NCBI RefSeq assembly: GCF_000013865.1
Contig: NC_007948.1
Span: forward strand, 620,001 to 684,000
Direction of reading: 5' to 3'
DNA from: Polaromonas sp. JS666
GTDB lineage: Bacteria; Pseudomonadota; Gammaproteobacteria; Burkholderiales; Burkholderiaceae_C
DNA: 64,000 nucleotides
In this document: in pieces, positions 37,881-56,469 of the stretch
How the letters are laid out: each line of letters starts with the position of its first letter
Position numbering within the stretch: the stretch's first letter is position 1
Made by a program: the position numbers and the translations under genes
Notes under the pieces: generated by a model
Seen by the model: only the letters and a program-made list of their open reading frames with translations
What the model was told of the DNA's origin: nothing
The model's database searches: none

Positions 37881-38659
37881 TAGAAGCCGAGCGCCGCGGC
37901 CAGCACGTGGTGCTGACGCTGAACCGCCCCGAAAAACTCAACGCCCTGAGCTACGAACTCATCGATGAGCTGATGGACCGGCTCGATGCGCTGGAGCGCG
38001 ACGAGAGCGTGCGCTGCCTGGTGCTGACCGGGCGGGGCGACAAGGCCTTCAGCGCCGGCGCCGACATCGCGGGCTTTGCGCCGGATGTTGCCGCATCGCC
38101 CGAAACAGCAGCGCGCCGCTTCGTCGCGCGCGGCCAGGCCATGACGCGCCGCGTCGAGAACTACCCCAAGCCCATCATCGCGGCTGTGAACGGGATTGCC
38201 TTTGGCGGCGGCTGCGAAACCATGGAGGCCTGCAGCCTGGCGATTGCGGCGGAACATGCGACTTTTGCCAAGCCTGAAATCCGGCTGGGCTTTCCGCCGC
38301 CGTTCGGCGGTACACAGCGCCTGCCGCGCCATATAGGCCGCAAGCGCGCCAACGAAATGATCCTGACGGGGGAGGCCATCAGCGCGGAAGAGGCATTGCT
38401 GATCGGGCTCATCAACCACGTGGTGCCTGCCAGCGACCTGTTGCCTGCCTGCCTGCGCATGGCGGACCTGATCGCCGCCAATTCGGCCGTAGCCGTCACG
38501 GCCTCGCTGCGTGCGGTCACACGCGGGTTGAACGTCTCCATCGACGAAGGCCTGGCCATCGAAGCCGCGCAGTTCATGATCGCCGCGGCCTCGCCTGATG
38601 CGAAGGAGGGCACGGCGGCCTTTGTGGAGAAGCGCCAGCCGGTGTTTTGCCATCGCTGA
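37874..38659 (+). CDS. Enoyl-CoA hydratase/isomerase family protein
   Basis: The 261-residue crotonase-fold protein starts at 37874 after a GGAGG site. RRGQHVVLTLNRPEKLNALSYELIDELMDRLDALERDESVRCLVLTGRGDKAFSAGADI is the N-terminal core with the oxyanion hole; VNGIAFGGGCETMEACSLAIAAEHATFAKPEIRLGFPPPFGGTQRLPRHIGRKRANEMILTG is the second oxyanion segment and catalytic region, including the Glu of ICDE-type (KPEIRLG). It probably hydrates or isomerises enoyl-CoA in a fatty- or aromatic-acid route. It is coupled to the DUF2917 gene; dbpA follows on the same strand 92 bp later. Confidence 0.92.
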   Translation: MLIEAERRGQHVVLTLNRPEKLNALSYELIDELMDRLDALERDESVRCLVLTGRGDKAFSAGADIAGFAPDVAASPETAARRFVARGQAMTRRVENYPKPIIAAVNGIAFGGGCETMEACSLAIAAEHATFAKPEIRLGFPPPFGGTQRLPRHIGRKRANEMILTGEAISAEEALLIGLINHVVPASDLLPACLRMADLIAANSAVAVTASLRAVTRGLNVSIDEGLAIEAAQFMIAAASPDAKEGTAAFVEKRQPVFCHR

Positions 38660-38751
38660 GGCCACCGGCCCGTGGGGCCACAGTAGGGCCACAGTGGGGC
38701 AATAGTGAGGTTATTGAGCGGCTGGCCGGGCCTCGCGCCGATAATCGGCGC

Positions 38752-40158
38752 ATGACTTCTTCTTCCTCCGACTTCAGCGCCCTGTCCCTTCCGGCCCATG
38801 TGCTGGCCAATCTGCAGCAGCTGGGCTACCTCAGCATGACGCCGATCCAGGCGGCCAGCCTGCCGGTGGCGCTGCTCGGCAAGGACCTGATTGCGCAGGC
38901 CAAAACCGGCAGCGGCAAGACCGCGGCGTTCGGGCTCGCGCTGCTGGCCAACCTCAATGCACGCCGCTTCGCCGTGCAGGCCATGGTGCTGTGCCCGACG
39001 CGCGAACTGGCCGACCAGGTGGCCACGGAAATCCGCCGGCTGGCGCGCGCCGAGGAAAACATCAAGGTCGTCACGCTGTGCGGCGGCGTGCCGCTGCGCA
39101 ACCAGGTGTCGAGCCTGCAGAACGGCGCACACATCGTGGTGGGCACGCCGGGCCGCATCATGGACCACCTGGAGCGGGAGACGCTGGACGTCGACGCGCT
39201 GAACACCCTGGTGCTGGACGAAGCCGACCGCATGCTGGACATGGGCTTTTACAACGACATCGCCACCGTGGCCAAACAGTGCCCCGACGAGCGGCAAACC
39301 CTGCTGTTTTCGGCCACCTACCCCGAGGGCATTGCCAAGCTCAGCCAGCAGTTCATGAAGGAGCCGCAAACCATCACCGTGCAGGCGCAGCACGAGAAAA
39401 GCAAAATCCGCCAGCGCTGGTATGAGGTGCCGGAGAGCGACCGCGACGAAGCGCGCCTGAACGCGGTGGCGCTGCTGCTCAACCATTACCGCCCGGCCAG
39501 CACCCTGGCTTTTTGCAATACCAAATCGCAGTGCCGCGCGCTGGTCGCCTATTTGAAGAACAAGGGCTTCAGCGCGCTGGCGCTGTACGGCGAGCTCGAG
39601 CAGCGTGAGCGCGACCAGGTGCTGGTGCAGTTTTCCAACCGCAGCTGCTCGGTGCTGGTGGCCACCGACGTGGCCGCGCGCGGCCTGGATATTTCGCAGC
39701 TGGAGATGGTGATCAATGTCGATGTCACGCCCGATGCCGAGGTGCACATTCACCGCATCGGCCGCACCGGCCGCGCCGATGAGGAGGGCTGGGCCATCAG
39801 CCTGGCCAGCATGGACGAGATGGGCTCGGTCGGCAAAATCGAGCAGTTGCAGAACGCCGAATCCGAATGGCACAAGCTGACTGAGCTCACACCCACCAGC
39901 ACCGAGCCGCTGCTGCCGCCCATGGTCACTTTGCAGATCGTCGGCGGGCGCAAGGAGAAAATTCGCGCCGGCGATGTGCTGGGAGCGTTGACCGGGGAAG
40001 CGGGTTTTACCCGCGAGCAGGTCGGCAAGATCAACGTCAACGAGTTCTCGACCTATGTGGCGGTGGACCGCGCCATCGCCAGCCAGGCGCAGCAAAAACT
40101 CGCCAGTGGCCGCGTCAAGGGCAAGAGCGTCAAGGTCCGCTTCATGGACGAGACCTGA
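38752..40158 (+). CDS. dbpA: ATP-dependent RNA helicase DbpA
   Basis: The 468-residue protein has all DEAD-box motifs: LIAQAKTGSGKT (I), PTRELADQVA (Ia), TPGRIMDHLE, VLDEADRMLDMGF (II), LFSATY (III), LVATDVAARGLDI (V) and VHIHRIGRTGRADEEG (VI). The C-terminal domain, LQIVGGRKEKIRAGDVLGALTGEAGFTREQVGKINVNEFSTYVAVDRAIASQAQQKL, is the DbpA RNA-binding domain that recognises 23S rRNA hairpin 92. It acts in 50S ribosome assembly. The ATG at 38752 is chosen because the family starts there; upstream in-frame codons add only Pro/Arg-rich sequence. Confidence 0.97.
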   Translation: MTSSSSDFSALSLPAHVLANLQQLGYLSMTPIQAASLPVALLGKDLIAQAKTGSGKTAAFGLALLANLNARRFAVQAMVLCPTRELADQVATEIRRLARAEENIKVVTLCGGVPLRNQVSSLQNGAHIVVGTPGRIMDHLERETLDVDALNTLVLDEADRMLDMGFYNDIATVAKQCPDERQTLLFSATYPEGIAKLSQQFMKEPQTITVQAQHEKSKIRQRWYEVPESDRDEARLNAVALLLNHYRPASTLAFCNTKSQCRALVAYLKNKGFSALALYGELEQRERDQVLVQFSNRSCSVLVATDVAARGLDISQLEMVINVDVTPDAEVHIHRIGRTGRADEEGWAISLASMDEMGSVGKIEQLQNAESEWHKLTELTPTSTEPLLPPMVTLQIVGGRKEKIRAGDVLGALTGEAGFTREQVGKINVNEFSTYVAVDRAIASQAQQKLASGRVKGKSVKVRFMDET

Positions 40159-40219
40159 AGCCCCGCGGGCAAGCTGCTCCTTACCTTGATTCCTGCCTGC
40201 TACTTTCCACTTTCCACTA

Positions 40220-41435
40220 GTGTGGTGCGCTCGAAGTTCTAGAACTTATGGGGGCGCCGGCAGTATCGGCGTTTGCGGGTGTCGAACTCACGCTCCCGGC
40301 CAGAAGGGGCCGCTCGTCAGCGACGGCTTAACGGCCGACTGACGCAGCGAGCGATCGTTGCCCAGAAGCAGTTAATAATTGGAACAATCATGCGCCAGCG
40401 CGTAATCTTCACGAACAGTCCCGCAGTCAGCGAGTTATACCGTTGCTTCGAGATCTCCCACGGGGCGCTTCACCACTACACGACAGCATATGCCGCTGCT
40501 TCCATCTCAAGTAATGGGGAACTGTGGCTTACGCGTGCCGACTCGTTCCTAGATCAAAGCGAAGTGGACTACGGGACCAGTATCTTGAAGGCGGCCGTCA
40601 AAGCGATCTTGACGGGTGAGGACCAAGCACGCCTCCTTGACCTTCTCGCACACATGAACGGCTCACTCCGCAAGTGTTATGTGCTTTCCCTCTCGAGCAA
40701 TTCGTCATCTACTTACCTAGCCAACACATACGGACCAAGCAATCTTGAGCTTCGAGAAAACTTTCCAATCGATCTCACGTACTCCGCGCGGCACTGCGTT
40801 CCTGACGGGGACGGATTTCTCCTCCACCATTTTTCCCAGCTGTATGAGGCGGTAGAAGGCTATGTCGTCTACGACGAAGACGAGCAATTGAGGATTGCTG
40901 GAAAGGCGATTGCCGCGGTTCAGGAGTTGGCCCATGCGAACGCGGACGTTGGGGATCTATTCCACATGCGTCAATTACTGATCGCTTGCATCACCCTCTT
41001 CAAACAGAAGCACTATGAGCAGGAAGAGGAGTACCGGATCGTCCTGCATCGCCTTGGCGAGATCGAGGTCCCTGACTTCGACGAACAGAGAGTCACCAAC
41101 GGTCGAACGATCAGCTACATCAGGGCGCAAGTTCCATGGTTCGAGCGCGACTGTGTCGTTGCCGTTCATGCCGCGACGTCAAATGCACACCATCCCGTCA
41201 TTTCAGCGGATCAGTAGTCGAGGCGGCTTCGGGTAGCACCGCAAAGCCGCTTGGAGGAGCGCTTTGGGTCGTGATTGACTGTTCGATCCGACGCCGGAAA
41301 GCCGACTATTCTTGCCAAGTCTGACGCGGCAGCGGGGCCTGTCAGCGGTTGTCATTCCGGGAGCGCCGGCTGATCAGCGACGAGGCCCACGGGCCTCGCC
41401 ATCATATAAGTACAGAATAGAGTGGCGCACCACAC
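40220..41435. mobile_element. Non-autonomous transposon-like unit with IS630-like ends and DUF2971 cargo
   Basis: The ends GTGTGGTGCGC (40220-40230) and GCGCACCACAC (41425-41435) are perfect inverted repeats, extended inward by a shared TTCT and ACTTAT motif. Each end is flanked by TA (40218-40219 and 41436-41437), the target duplication used by IS630/Tc1-mariner elements. The 1216-bp unit has lower GC than its neighbours and carries one gene (DUF2971) but no transposase. Left of it is a short CTTTCCA heptamer repeat. Confidence 0.7.
40390..41217 (+). CDS. DUF2971 domain protein, cargo of the TA-flanked element
   Basis: The 275-residue protein begins at the ATG at 40390 (weak GGA site); EISHGALHHYTTAYAAASISSNGELWLTRADSFLDQSEVDYGTSIL is the N-terminal signature of DUF2971, and LFKQKHYEQEEEYRIVLHRLGEI in the C-terminal half carries the paired Tyr/Glu residues of that family. 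DUF2971 proteins have no settled function; some occur in defence-related or mobile contexts. The base composition is near 50 percent GC, lower than the surrounding genes, and it is the only gene between the element's inverted repeats. An upstream start at 40273 is possible but would give an arm rich in Arg with no family match. Confidence 0.7.
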   Translation: MRQRVIFTNSPAVSELYRCFEISHGALHHYTTAYAAASISSNGELWLTRADSFLDQSEVDYGTSILKAAVKAILTGEDQARLLDLLAHMNGSLRKCYVLSLSSNSSSTYLANTYGPSNLELRENFPIDLTYSARHCVPDGDGFLLHHFSQLYEAVEGYVVYDEDEQLRIAGKAIAAVQELAHANADVGDLFHMRQLLIACITLFKQKHYEQEEEYRIVLHRLGEIEVPDFDEQRVTNGRTISYIRAQVPWFERDCVVAVHAATSNAHHPVISADQ

Positions 41436-41449
41436 TAGCTACTTTCTGA

Positions 41450-43573
41450 TCAGGGCAAATCCTTGTTCACCTCGGGCAGCGACGCATCGCGTGGCCCGAC
41501 CATGCCCAGCCGCGCTTTCAGGGACTGTGGCTGCCCCGTCAGGATGGCCGCGTAGTTGGTGGTGTTTGAAAGCACTTTCTTGACATAGTCGCGGGTCTCG
41601 CCGAAGGGCACATTCTCGGCCCAGATGGCGGCATCGAGCACCGGGCTGCCGGGTTGCCCGCGCCAGACGCGGGGCCGGCCCGGCCCGGCGTTGTAGGCGG
41701 CTGCAGCCATGGCCATCGAGCCCTCGAAGGCGTCCAGGGCGAGCTTCAGGTAGCCGGTGCCTATCGTGATGTTGGTGTCGCGGTCATTGATCTGGTCGGG
41801 CGTGAAACCCGCCAGGCCGATTCGGCGTGCGGTTTCGCGCGCCGTGGCGGGCATGATCTGCATCAGGCCCGAGGCCCCCGGGCCGGAACGGGCATCCATG
41901 ATGAAACGGCTTTCCTGGCGGATCAGCCCATAAACGTAGGCCGGGTCGAGGCCGACTTCGCGGCTGCGCTTGACCACGGCCTCGCGGAACGGCACGGGGA
42001 AGCGCTGATCGAAATCGGTCTCGGTTCTGGTGCGCTCGCTGGTGTTGATGCAGCGGTCCCAGATCTGCCGGTCACAGGCAAACTGGGCGGCTGCCAGCAG
42101 TTCGCGGTCGCCCATCCCGGCGCGTTCGCCCTCGCCGTTGCGCTTGTGCAGGTTGGTGCTGTAGTTCCATTCGCGCACGCCCTCCGGCCGCAAACCTATC
42201 GTGATGGCATAGGCGGCGCGGTTCAGCCCGGGGTTGAGCCGTGCGGCTTCCTTTTCTGCCGCCGTGAGTGGCGCCGGCTGGGCCGGCACCGTGATCTTCT
42301 GGCCCAGTTCCTCCAGTGCCAGCTGCTCATAAAAGCCGCGCGGGGAGGCCAGAGCCTGCAGCATCGCCAGCGCCTCGGCGCGCTGGGGCGCGATGCTGAT
42401 GGTCTGCGTGACACCCTGTGGCGTGCTGACCGCGGTGGGAATGTTGGGCGGCGCCGTGGCCAGCAGCGCGCGCGCCTTCCAGTAGCTCCAGGCCGGGTCC
42501 TTGCGGGCCTCCTCGCTCATTGCGTTGATGGCCGCCAGCACCTGCGGCCATTGGGCCTGGGTGCCCGCGCGCAGCGCTGCACGGGCCTTCCAGGCCAGCA
42601 TGTCATCCGTCAGGTCGCTGTCGTTGTTGACCCTGGCAAAGTACTGCAGCGCATCGCTGCCCGGCACCGTGCCCAGGCGGGTTGCCGCCTGTTTGCCGAT
42701 CACGCCCCAGACCCAGTTGCGCTCCTCGGCGTTGAGCTGGACGGCCCACTTGCTTTCCAGCTGGAAAGCGGCACCTTCCACGTCGGTGGTGGCCATCTTG
42801 ATCAGTGCCAGCGTGATGATTTCCTTGCGCACTTTCCGCAGGGCCAAGTGTTTGCCGGCAAGAAACCTGATGGGGCTGCTGTTCAGCTCGGTCAGCAGGT
42901 CCATGGCCTCCGGAGCAATGATCTGCACCGCACCCGCTGCGGCCCGTGGCCGGTTGGCCTCGGTGGCGATGCGGGCTTTTTGCCAGACATCCTGCGTCGT
43001 GAGGTTTTGGGCGCCGACCAGCCGGTCGGCGGCGGCGGTGCAGCCGTCGTCGGCGTCGCGCTGCGCGTACCAGTTTTTTCGCACTTCGTCCGACAGGCGC
43101 GCATCGAGCGCCGGATTCTTCAGGTGCTCCACCAGCAGGGCATAGCAACGCACTTCCCTGTCGTCGTTCATGCGGTAGTTCGGGTACTCGGCCGCAAAGG
43201 CGGCCCAGTCGCGGCGCTGGCCCAGCAGCAGCAGCCAGTCATTGCGCAGGCGGTCTTCCTGGTAGGTGCCGGCGTAGCGGGCGAGAAAGTCCTGCACCTC
43301 CTGCGCGCTGGCCTCGCCCAGACGCGTTTTCAGCTCCCAGTAGGCCGCCCAGGGCTCCAGCGCATGGCCTCTGGCCTGGGGCAGCATCTGGGCCAGCCGG
43401 CCCTTGTCGCTGCGCCTGAAGGCCTTGTTCATTTCGAGAATCAGGTTGTCGCCATTGCTGCCGTTGCCGTTTGAGGAGGTGTTTTGGGCGGCGGCGGGGA
43501 CCAGCAAACTGAGCGAGAGGGTGGCATACGCCGCAGCAAAGAACGCGGCGTTGAAATTTTTTTTGTATAGCAT
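41450..43573 (-). CDS. slt: Soluble lytic murein transglycosylase
   Basis: The 707-residue protein has a signal peptide (MLYKKNFNAAFFAAAYATLSLSLLVPAAAQ), a long alpha-helical superhelical region (about 50-520), and the SLT catalytic domain with the acid Glu at about 554 (VYGLIRQESRFIMDARSGPGASGLMQIMPATARETARR) and AYNAGPGRPRVW. It cleaves peptidoglycan glycan strands to 1,6-anhydro ends in the periplasm. The gene is divergent from the 5-formyl-THF cyclo-ligase gene with only 9 bp between start codons. The right end of the 1.2-kb element lies about 15 bp past its stop codon. Confidence 0.95.
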   Translation of the reverse strand: MLYKKNFNAAFFAAAYATLSLSLLVPAAAQNTSSNGNGSNGDNLILEMNKAFRRSDKGRLAQMLPQARGHALEPWAAYWELKTRLGEASAQEVQDFLARYAGTYQEDRLRNDWLLLLGQRRDWAAFAAEYPNYRMNDDREVRCYALLVEHLKNPALDARLSDEVRKNWYAQRDADDGCTAAADRLVGAQNLTTQDVWQKARIATEANRPRAAAGAVQIIAPEAMDLLTELNSSPIRFLAGKHLALRKVRKEIITLALIKMATTDVEGAAFQLESKWAVQLNAEERNWVWGVIGKQAATRLGTVPGSDALQYFARVNNDSDLTDDMLAWKARAALRAGTQAQWPQVLAAINAMSEEARKDPAWSYWKARALLATAPPNIPTAVSTPQGVTQTISIAPQRAEALAMLQALASPRGFYEQLALEELGQKITVPAQPAPLTAAEKEAARLNPGLNRAAYAITIGLRPEGVREWNYSTNLHKRNGEGERAGMGDRELLAAAQFACDRQIWDRCINTSERTRTETDFDQRFPVPFREAVVKRSREVGLDPAYVYGLIRQESRFIMDARSGPGASGLMQIMPATARETARRIGLAGFTPDQINDRDTNITIGTGYLKLALDAFEGSMAMAAAAYNAGPGRPRVWRGQPGSPVLDAAIWAENVPFGETRDYVKKVLSNTTNYAAILTGQPQSLKARLGMVGPRDASLPEVNKDLP

Positions 43574-56283: not shown

Positions 56284-56371
56284 GGCCGCGGGACTGGCTT
56301 TGCCAGACCGCAGGCGCAGCGCCCCCTCGGGGGGCAGCGAACCACACGAAGTGGGGAGCGTGGGGGCTGTA
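56284..56371. repeat. Dispersed GC-rich intergenic repeat, copy A
   Basis: CCGCGGGACTGGCTTTGCC, CCGCAGGCGCAGCGCCCCC, TCGGGGGGCAGCG, CACACGAAGTGGGGAGCG and TGGGGGC follow in order. A second copy follows directly (56390-56469) and a related one lies at 20873-20960. Confidence 0.85.
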
Positions 56372-56389
56372 TCTTCCCAGCCAGGGCCG

Positions 56390-56469
56390 CGGAACCGGCT
56401 TTGCCGGGCCGCAGGCGCAGCGCCCCCTCGGGGGGCAGCGAACCACACGAAGTGGGGAGCGTGGGGGCC
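56390..56469. repeat. Dispersed GC-rich intergenic repeat, copy B
   Basis: Tandem neighbour of the copy at 56284-56371, nearly identical from CCGCAGGCGCAGCGCCCC onward. It ends at the stop codon of the LysR gene. Both copies are oriented the same way and lie between converging genes, where a terminator is needed. Confidence 0.85.

Follow-up and report, generated by a model that had tools for sequence, protein, structure and literature searches.

A TA-bounded unit with one long gene, lying in the 64,000-nucleotide stretch of Polaromonas sp. JS666 DNA analyzed here (the window), is very probably a mobile insertion cassette (MIC) of the IS630/Tc1-mariner type that is moved in trans. Its ends match those of a known IS family, and it contains a passenger gene and no transposase gene. 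Since no DDE transposase was found inside it, we regard the unit as a derivative and not as an IS. An earlier note on this DNA had proposed a non-autonomous transposon with a cargo gene, and the combination of IS630-type ends, a passenger gene, and the lack of any match to the IS transposase in the interior agrees with that proposal. The unit is not a MITE, a class that is short and without coding sequence, as it measures 1222 bp and encodes a 275-aa protein. The coordinates of the unit, its parts, and the related cargo units are compiled in Table 1.

Table 1. Positions of the probable cassette, its component parts, and related cargo units (window positions unless a genome or contig is named)
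Feature	Location	Strand	Size and remarks
Whole unit	40217..41438		1222 bp including flanking C-TA and TA-G; TA to TA, 40218-41437
Left TA, presumed target-site duplication	40218..40219		CTAG context
Right TA, presumed target-site duplication	41436..41437		TA-G context
IS630-type left end	40218..40249	+	32 bp, TA included
IS630-type right end	41406..41437	-	32 bp, TA included
Left backbone common to second unit	40217..40303	+	87 bp, 97%; includes patch CTCACGCTCCCGGCCAG
Right backbone common to second unit	41266..41438	+	173 bp, 92%
Cargo gene	40390..41217	+	275 aa from ATG at 40390; sole long gene inside
Second unit, own genome	G000:C1:3568049-3571954 (L157:5050-8955)		3906 bp
Third unit	G831, another family of the same order		3075 bp
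Fourth unit	G844 (L089, Burkholderiales bacterium Ga0077543)		6697 bp

The window unit reads C-TA-GTGTGGTGCGC at its left border and GCGCACCACAC-TA-G at its right border, with TA directly outside GTGTGGTGCGC at both ends and CTAG as both flanks. The 11-bp perfect inverted repeats reported earlier are present, and their length becomes 14 bp once the flanking C-TA and TA-G are counted (CTAGTGTGGTGCGC, 40217-40230 against 41425-41438, with a spacing of 1194 nt). Reading of the sequence also bears out the TA on both sides and the longer partial symmetry that had been noted, the two ends being alike at positions 1 to 13 and in part of 24 to 32 and unlike between. Both ends have their counterparts in the respective ends of one IS630-family IS. 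The existence of a TA-bounded unit ending in inverted repeats is thereby confirmed.

Taken alone, the 11-mer is a weak signal: GTGTGGTGCGC has 14 exact copies in the 5.9-Mb genome versus 8 for a reversed control, and at up to one mismatch it occurs at 7 places in the window versus 4.4 expected. The 14-mer is found exactly three times in the genome, every time at a unit end, and at up to two mismatches its 49 places are background when set against 48 for the reversed control. If only these short words were considered, an ordinary acquired gene that happens to be flanked by inverted repeats could be entertained, as the 11-mer barely exceeds its control and the relaxed 14-mer does not rise above background. 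The full 32-bp ends speak otherwise. When the window was scanned with the left end of one IS copy (G170:C40), the best place was 40218 on the forward strand, with 27 of 32 positions identical, and a scan with the right end of the same copy placed best at 41437 on the reverse strand, with 29 of 32; the next best place scored 19 of 32 in both scans, and the maxima over 40 first-order random windows were 21 (left end) and 22 (right end) of 32. The unit ends thus differ from those of the IS at five (left) and three (right) of 32 positions, and because these scores stand far above the rest, we equate the left end of the unit with the IS left end and the right end with the IS right end. These matches to the ends of an IS630-family IS substantiate the IS630-type ends named in the earlier note. 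Together with the IS ends, a second unit with the same ends, described below, speaks decisively against chance, to which we assign next to no probability.

The IS is 1.18 kb long, occurs in other genomes of the same bacterial family, and is likewise bordered by TA on both sides within CTAG. Among 399 family genomes, its right-end pattern matched in 10, counting the own genome, and the reversed control of the pattern had none among the matches listed for these 399 genomes. At 20 of the 29 right-end places outside the own genome, a left end follows 1174 to 1184 bp away; among the other nine, four are no more than about 125 bp from the end of a contig, one is without a locus, and four (L167, L169, L179, and L183) had no left end in the flanking DNA examined. 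Twenty-two pairs were listed, and omission of L253, whose left boundary is not TA, leaves 21 complete copies, namely, the 20 above and one in G273; they are partly dependent, as L181 and L195 share flanks and L186 and L188 abut. A C precedes the left TA in all 21 copies, and a G follows the right TA in 20 (the exception is L189). TA at both ends with CTAG preferred, which marks the IS630/Tc1-mariner type, was accordingly observed in the four cargo units and in 20 of 21 IS copies. The IS protein (L175) has 373 aa and matches DDE_3 and several helix-turn-helix families, and two plasmids of Variovorax sp. WDL1 carry IS copies with 78% identity over the full length that are annotated as "IS630 family transposase." In a Burkholderiales MAG (G846, via L056), a right end is identical to that of the window unit at 31 of 32 positions by manual count, and 22 residues near the end of the IS transposase adjoin the right end in L056, L058, and L104.

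In an alignment of the ends, positions 1 to 13 and about 24 to 33 are conserved in the units and the IS, and the positions between are less conserved. By analogy with the ISY100 transposase, which binds its ends via two helix-turn-helix motifs (PMC2170065), positions 1 to 13 and about 24 to 32 would be two transposase binding sites.

Several small elements have related ends. Four loci from MAGs labeled Rhodospirillales or Rhodospirillaceae (L047, L071, L084, and L121) contain MITE-like elements of 264 bp whose ends have the same 13-bp core, and in L071 two ends overlap, which looks like insertion of one element into the margin of another. A 38-bp palindrome in Streptomyces (L074:7374-7411) and a 20-bp palindrome in Aquabacterium (L069:6235-6254) consist of little beyond two facing ends. 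Small elements of G597 (L251, L253, L254, and L255) have related ends reading TAGTGTAGTGCTTTCGAATTATTGGAACTTAT, with C before TA on both sides and a size of 143 bp from TA to TA as measured in L254. In the window itself, two near-identical stretches, CCCCCACGCTCCCCACTTCGTGTGGTTCGCTGCCCCCCGAGGGGGCGC, lie about 101 bp apart at 56320 to 56460.

Other units with like ends and other cargo, which the earlier note had suggested looking for, do exist: the own genome has one more, and two other genomes have one each. The second unit carries an HxlR regulator, a carbon-nitrogen hydrolase (CN_hydrolase), and a FAD oxidase (FAD_binding_4 with BBE); the third, an AraC-type regulator, an alpha/beta hydrolase, and a SnoaL-like protein; and the fourth, a response regulator, a histidine kinase, and a mechanosensitive-channel protein in addition to other ORFs. 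All four units have CTAG at both sides, and in the second and fourth the neighboring ORF has its stop codon in the TAG of the left CTAG. In three pairwise comparisons (not every pair was taken, and the third unit was not compared with the fourth), the units were similar only at their ends, and the window unit and the second unit had no similarity beyond the end stretches at an E value of ≤0.01. The left end of the unit type is TAGTGTGGTGCGCTCGAARTYCTTGAACCTATCGG and near variants. A subterminal patch, CTCACGCTCCCGGCCAG, lies near positions 70 to 90 of the unit left ends, where it is clear in the window unit and in the second and fourth units and weaker in the third; its last letters fall at the edge of the stretch shared with the second unit. 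Two further left ends of the unit type (L099/L284 and L286, the latter with GA instead of TA) had no right end in the flanking DNA examined. The absence of a transposase from the interior, also claimed earlier, holds as well, the 275-aa gene having no Pfam transposase match and none to the IS transposase; a search inside all four units with this one IS transposase as the query gave a best match with an E value of 0.69.

It might be argued that the window unit is a decayed autonomous IS630 copy whose transposase was later replaced by cargo and that never moved as a cassette. The own genome, in which no helper transposase was found, would fit such a history, and the ends and the center of the unit could differ in their past. 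Against this, the stretches shared with the second unit (87 bp on the left and 173 bp on the right) exceed the 32 to 33 bp that resemble the IS, the interior showed no trace of the IS transposase, and the same layout recurs in four units with different cargo. We consider a decayed copy quite unlikely.

The relation of the units to the 1.18-kb IS may be less direct than the ends suggest. The IS is without the subterminal left-end patch CTCACGCTCCCGGCCAG, and the units may therefore have had a different parent. That parent could have been a larger autonomous family with transposase and cargo, of which the four units would be deletion derivatives, and the patch, absent from the IS, is in keeping with a different direct parent. 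The searches did not come upon such a parent. The pattern of the unit-type left end matched in 4 of 399 order genomes, none of them with a parent carrying transposase and cargo; the matches are the two units of the own genome, the third unit, an IS left end in G170, which belongs to the known IS with its transposase alongside, and four MITEs in G597. Nor was one noticed among 21 handles surveyed, for which part of the hits were opened. We therefore hold descent from a larger parent to be unlikely, if still worth reckoning with, and prefer the reading of the window unit as a cassette moved in trans.

Searches with the whole unit and its backbones delimit its distribution. Among the matches listed for 100 relatives, with up to four candidates per genome scored, the window unit as a whole occurs in the own genome only. 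A 175-bp query of the right backbone matched in 25 of 399 family genomes at an E value of ≤0.001, the own genome included, and the matches outside the own genome are partial, covering either the last 31 to 44 bp (the IS ends) or a G+C-rich stretch within positions 90 to 168; we take the latter, middle matches to be unrelated. The unit ends had no match or weak partial ones (E values of 0.2 to 0.8) in plasmids and phages, and two exact patterns had no match in viral contigs. No Rfam family matched the unit up to an E value of 0.5, no sigma-70-like site was found in it, and the fold of the right backbone was unremarkable (z score, -1.3).

Since both flanks are CTAG, they would fit equally an element family that duplicates this 4-bp sequence and not TA. 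The matching autonomous element, however, has an IS630-type DDE_3 transposase, and elements with the same 13-bp core (L071, L084, and L121) are flanked by C-TA and TA-A, which fits a 2-bp and not a 4-bp duplication. A 4-bp duplication is hence very improbable, and the TA dinucleotides would be the duplicated target. For the IS630 family, a preference for TA within CTAG is reportedly stated in the title of a 1991 paper by Tenzen and Ohtsubo, cited in PMC2170065.

The helper transposase was sought in the own genome, which has eight DDE_3 matches. The protein closest to the cognate transposase shares 40% identity with it, and the element of this relative appears in an inverted-repeat scan with other ends, GTGGACTGTAACGATTGAATCGG. 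Two fragments are 52 to 54% identical to the cognate transposase, and one of them adjoins a right end of related type that seems to have decayed. The own genome yielded no intact cognate transposase, and the unit is therefore probably stranded there and immobile today. The earlier suggestion that it is moved by a transposase elsewhere thus stands insofar as a cognate IS630-family transposase exists in other genomes, and it falls short in the own genome, where no intact one was found; the check for an IS630 transposase in the same genome turned up the 40% relative, with its apparently different ends, and two fragments above 50%. The three genomes with complete units had no matching end pair besides those of the units, and a complete unit was thus never met alongside a helper in this survey of 21 handles, which include the apparent same-genome pairs G350/G843 and G437/G848. 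In G350/G843, apparently the same MAG, an IS pair occurs along with a left end of the unit type that has no right-end partner. A different IS630-like element, with an end starting TAGTGTGGTGGTC, is located at about 3.782 Mb of G000:C1 (L162 and L164), and its DDE_3 match is in two parts, one with an internal stop codon.

The window unit lies between two ORFs that are open throughout (38647-40158, forward strand, and 41450-43573, reverse strand) and for which we use the names of the earlier note, dbpA and slt. Both have their 3' ends toward the unit, dbpA at 40158 and slt at 41450. The slt protein has a match in all 61 genus genomes, which is weak in four (G011, G027, G044, and G048). Among 30 loci, dbpA was found within the roughly 1.5 kb of DNA examined beside slt in the own genome only, with L245 being without the slt 3' end. 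Before insertion, the dbpA-slt interval is expected to have contained a single CTAG, as in ...CCACTAGCTACT..., and no empty site was found for the window unit or the second unit in the relatives examined. Counting the own genome, 15 of 87 genus genomes have a relative of the gene that flanks the second unit. In 13 of 15 non-own loci, this gene runs on for Asp-Pro and a stop codon past the start of the unit, where the query ended by construction; in L288 it has two other codons and a stop past that point, and L301 is not alignable there. Given where the query ended, this pattern hints faintly at an insertion junction. The right flank of the second unit had no match better than an E value of 0.049 in the 15 loci.

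The start of the cargo gene at 40390 was chosen by us with the help of an alignment with relatives. Its G+C content, lower than that of its surroundings as described earlier, is 54.5% versus 64.0% for the window, and a value that low occurs in 37 of 1264 windows of equal size. The gene had been called a DUF2971 gene; the resemblance survives as a borderline one, the match of the protein to DUF2971 (PF11185) having an E value of 0.026 and 16.3 bits, below the Pfam cutoff of 22. Four of nine members of the cargo family match DUF2971 at an E value of ≤0.1, the best at 4e-4. Eight relatives, 39 to 95% identical, were found among 5.8 billion proteins, on contigs of 0.9 to 8.1 kb, and in 399 order genomes there was a weak match in one other genome (30% over 69 residues; E value, 4e-6). 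The cargo is a rare, borderline DUF2971-like protein. In the literature searched, the word DUF2971 occurs in one paper, a genome reannotation. One PHROGs family without an assigned role, the distant phage-protein family phrog_1762, matched the cargo with an E value of 4e-5; the protein had no match in plasmids and no confirmed relative in viral contigs. The suggestion of a defense function gained no support, as no model of PADLOC-DB or NCBIfam matched up to an E value of 1. Members of the family share conserved HYT and E-EYR motifs, which might point to an ADP-ribosyltransferase-like fold, and a sequence search of solved structures returned one match that is not significant (E value, 0.54).

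A single gene in a unit of about 1.2 kb, with several cargo relatives on contigs of about 1 kb, also calls to mind an integron-type gene cassette. The ends are of the IS630 type, though, and canonical attC core sites were not seen next to the gene on inspection by eye, which makes an integron cassette extremely improbable.

Taken as a cassette of the IS630/Tc1-mariner type, the unit would have derived its ends from the 1.18-kb IS630-family (Tc1/mariner superfamily) IS and would hold the passenger where the IS has its transposase. Acting in trans, an IS630-family transposase would bind the two-part ends, cut the unit out, and insert it at a TA, preferably within CTAG; in the own genome the unit would now be immobile. 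More tentatively, and with somewhat less than even confidence, we suggest that the four units may belong to a lineage, within this order, of cargo units with IS630 ends and no transposase. This lineage would have its own conserved subterminal left-end sequence, swap its interior while keeping its ends, spread to genomes without a helper, and land at CTAG. The interiors in such a lineage would range from a single orphan gene to a regulator with enzymes and a two-component system with a channel, and in two of the four units landing within a stop codon would have done little damage. Units of this type need only TA and have from one to several accessory genes enclosed by like ends. Because they have no transposase to annotate, they are easy to miss, and their end sequences allow a direct search for further units.

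Elements of the same general design have been described before. With IS630-family members (IS630 and ISY100) the window unit shares the TA boundaries, which in it are a presumed duplication, and it differs from them in that no transposase was found in it. MITEs of the IS630 type, such as MITEPlu5 of Photorhabdus, have IS630-like ends and a TA duplication and are said to be mobilized in trans (PMC6267812); MITEs are too short for a transposase gene, whereas the present units carry one to several genes. ISsaga names MITEs, MICs, and transporter ISs (PMC3129680), the last of which have passenger genes inside an IS, as the present units have between IS ends; a transporter IS is an IS copy with added passenger genes, whereas in the window unit no transposase was found. 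The closest likeness is to MICs such as MIC231, mic-qnrD, and mic-qnrS2 (PMC4444841 and PMC5444012 for the last), which also have inverted repeats around a passenger and no transposase, along with a target duplication, presumed in the window unit from the TA on both sides. MIC231A1, of the MIC231 group of Bacillus cereus, is described as mobilized in trans by the IS231A transposase (PMC3913671). The published cassettes of the MIC kind that were consulted have IS231-type or unassigned ends and often resistance genes, and no passenger unit with IS630 ends was described in the literature searched, mainly open-access titles and the beginnings of abstracts. By comparison, the present units have IS630/Tc1-mariner ends with TA and cargo of up to 6.7 kb with several genes. 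MICs as such are already known, for example, with IS231 ends, and, within the literature searched, IS630-type ends are what is new.
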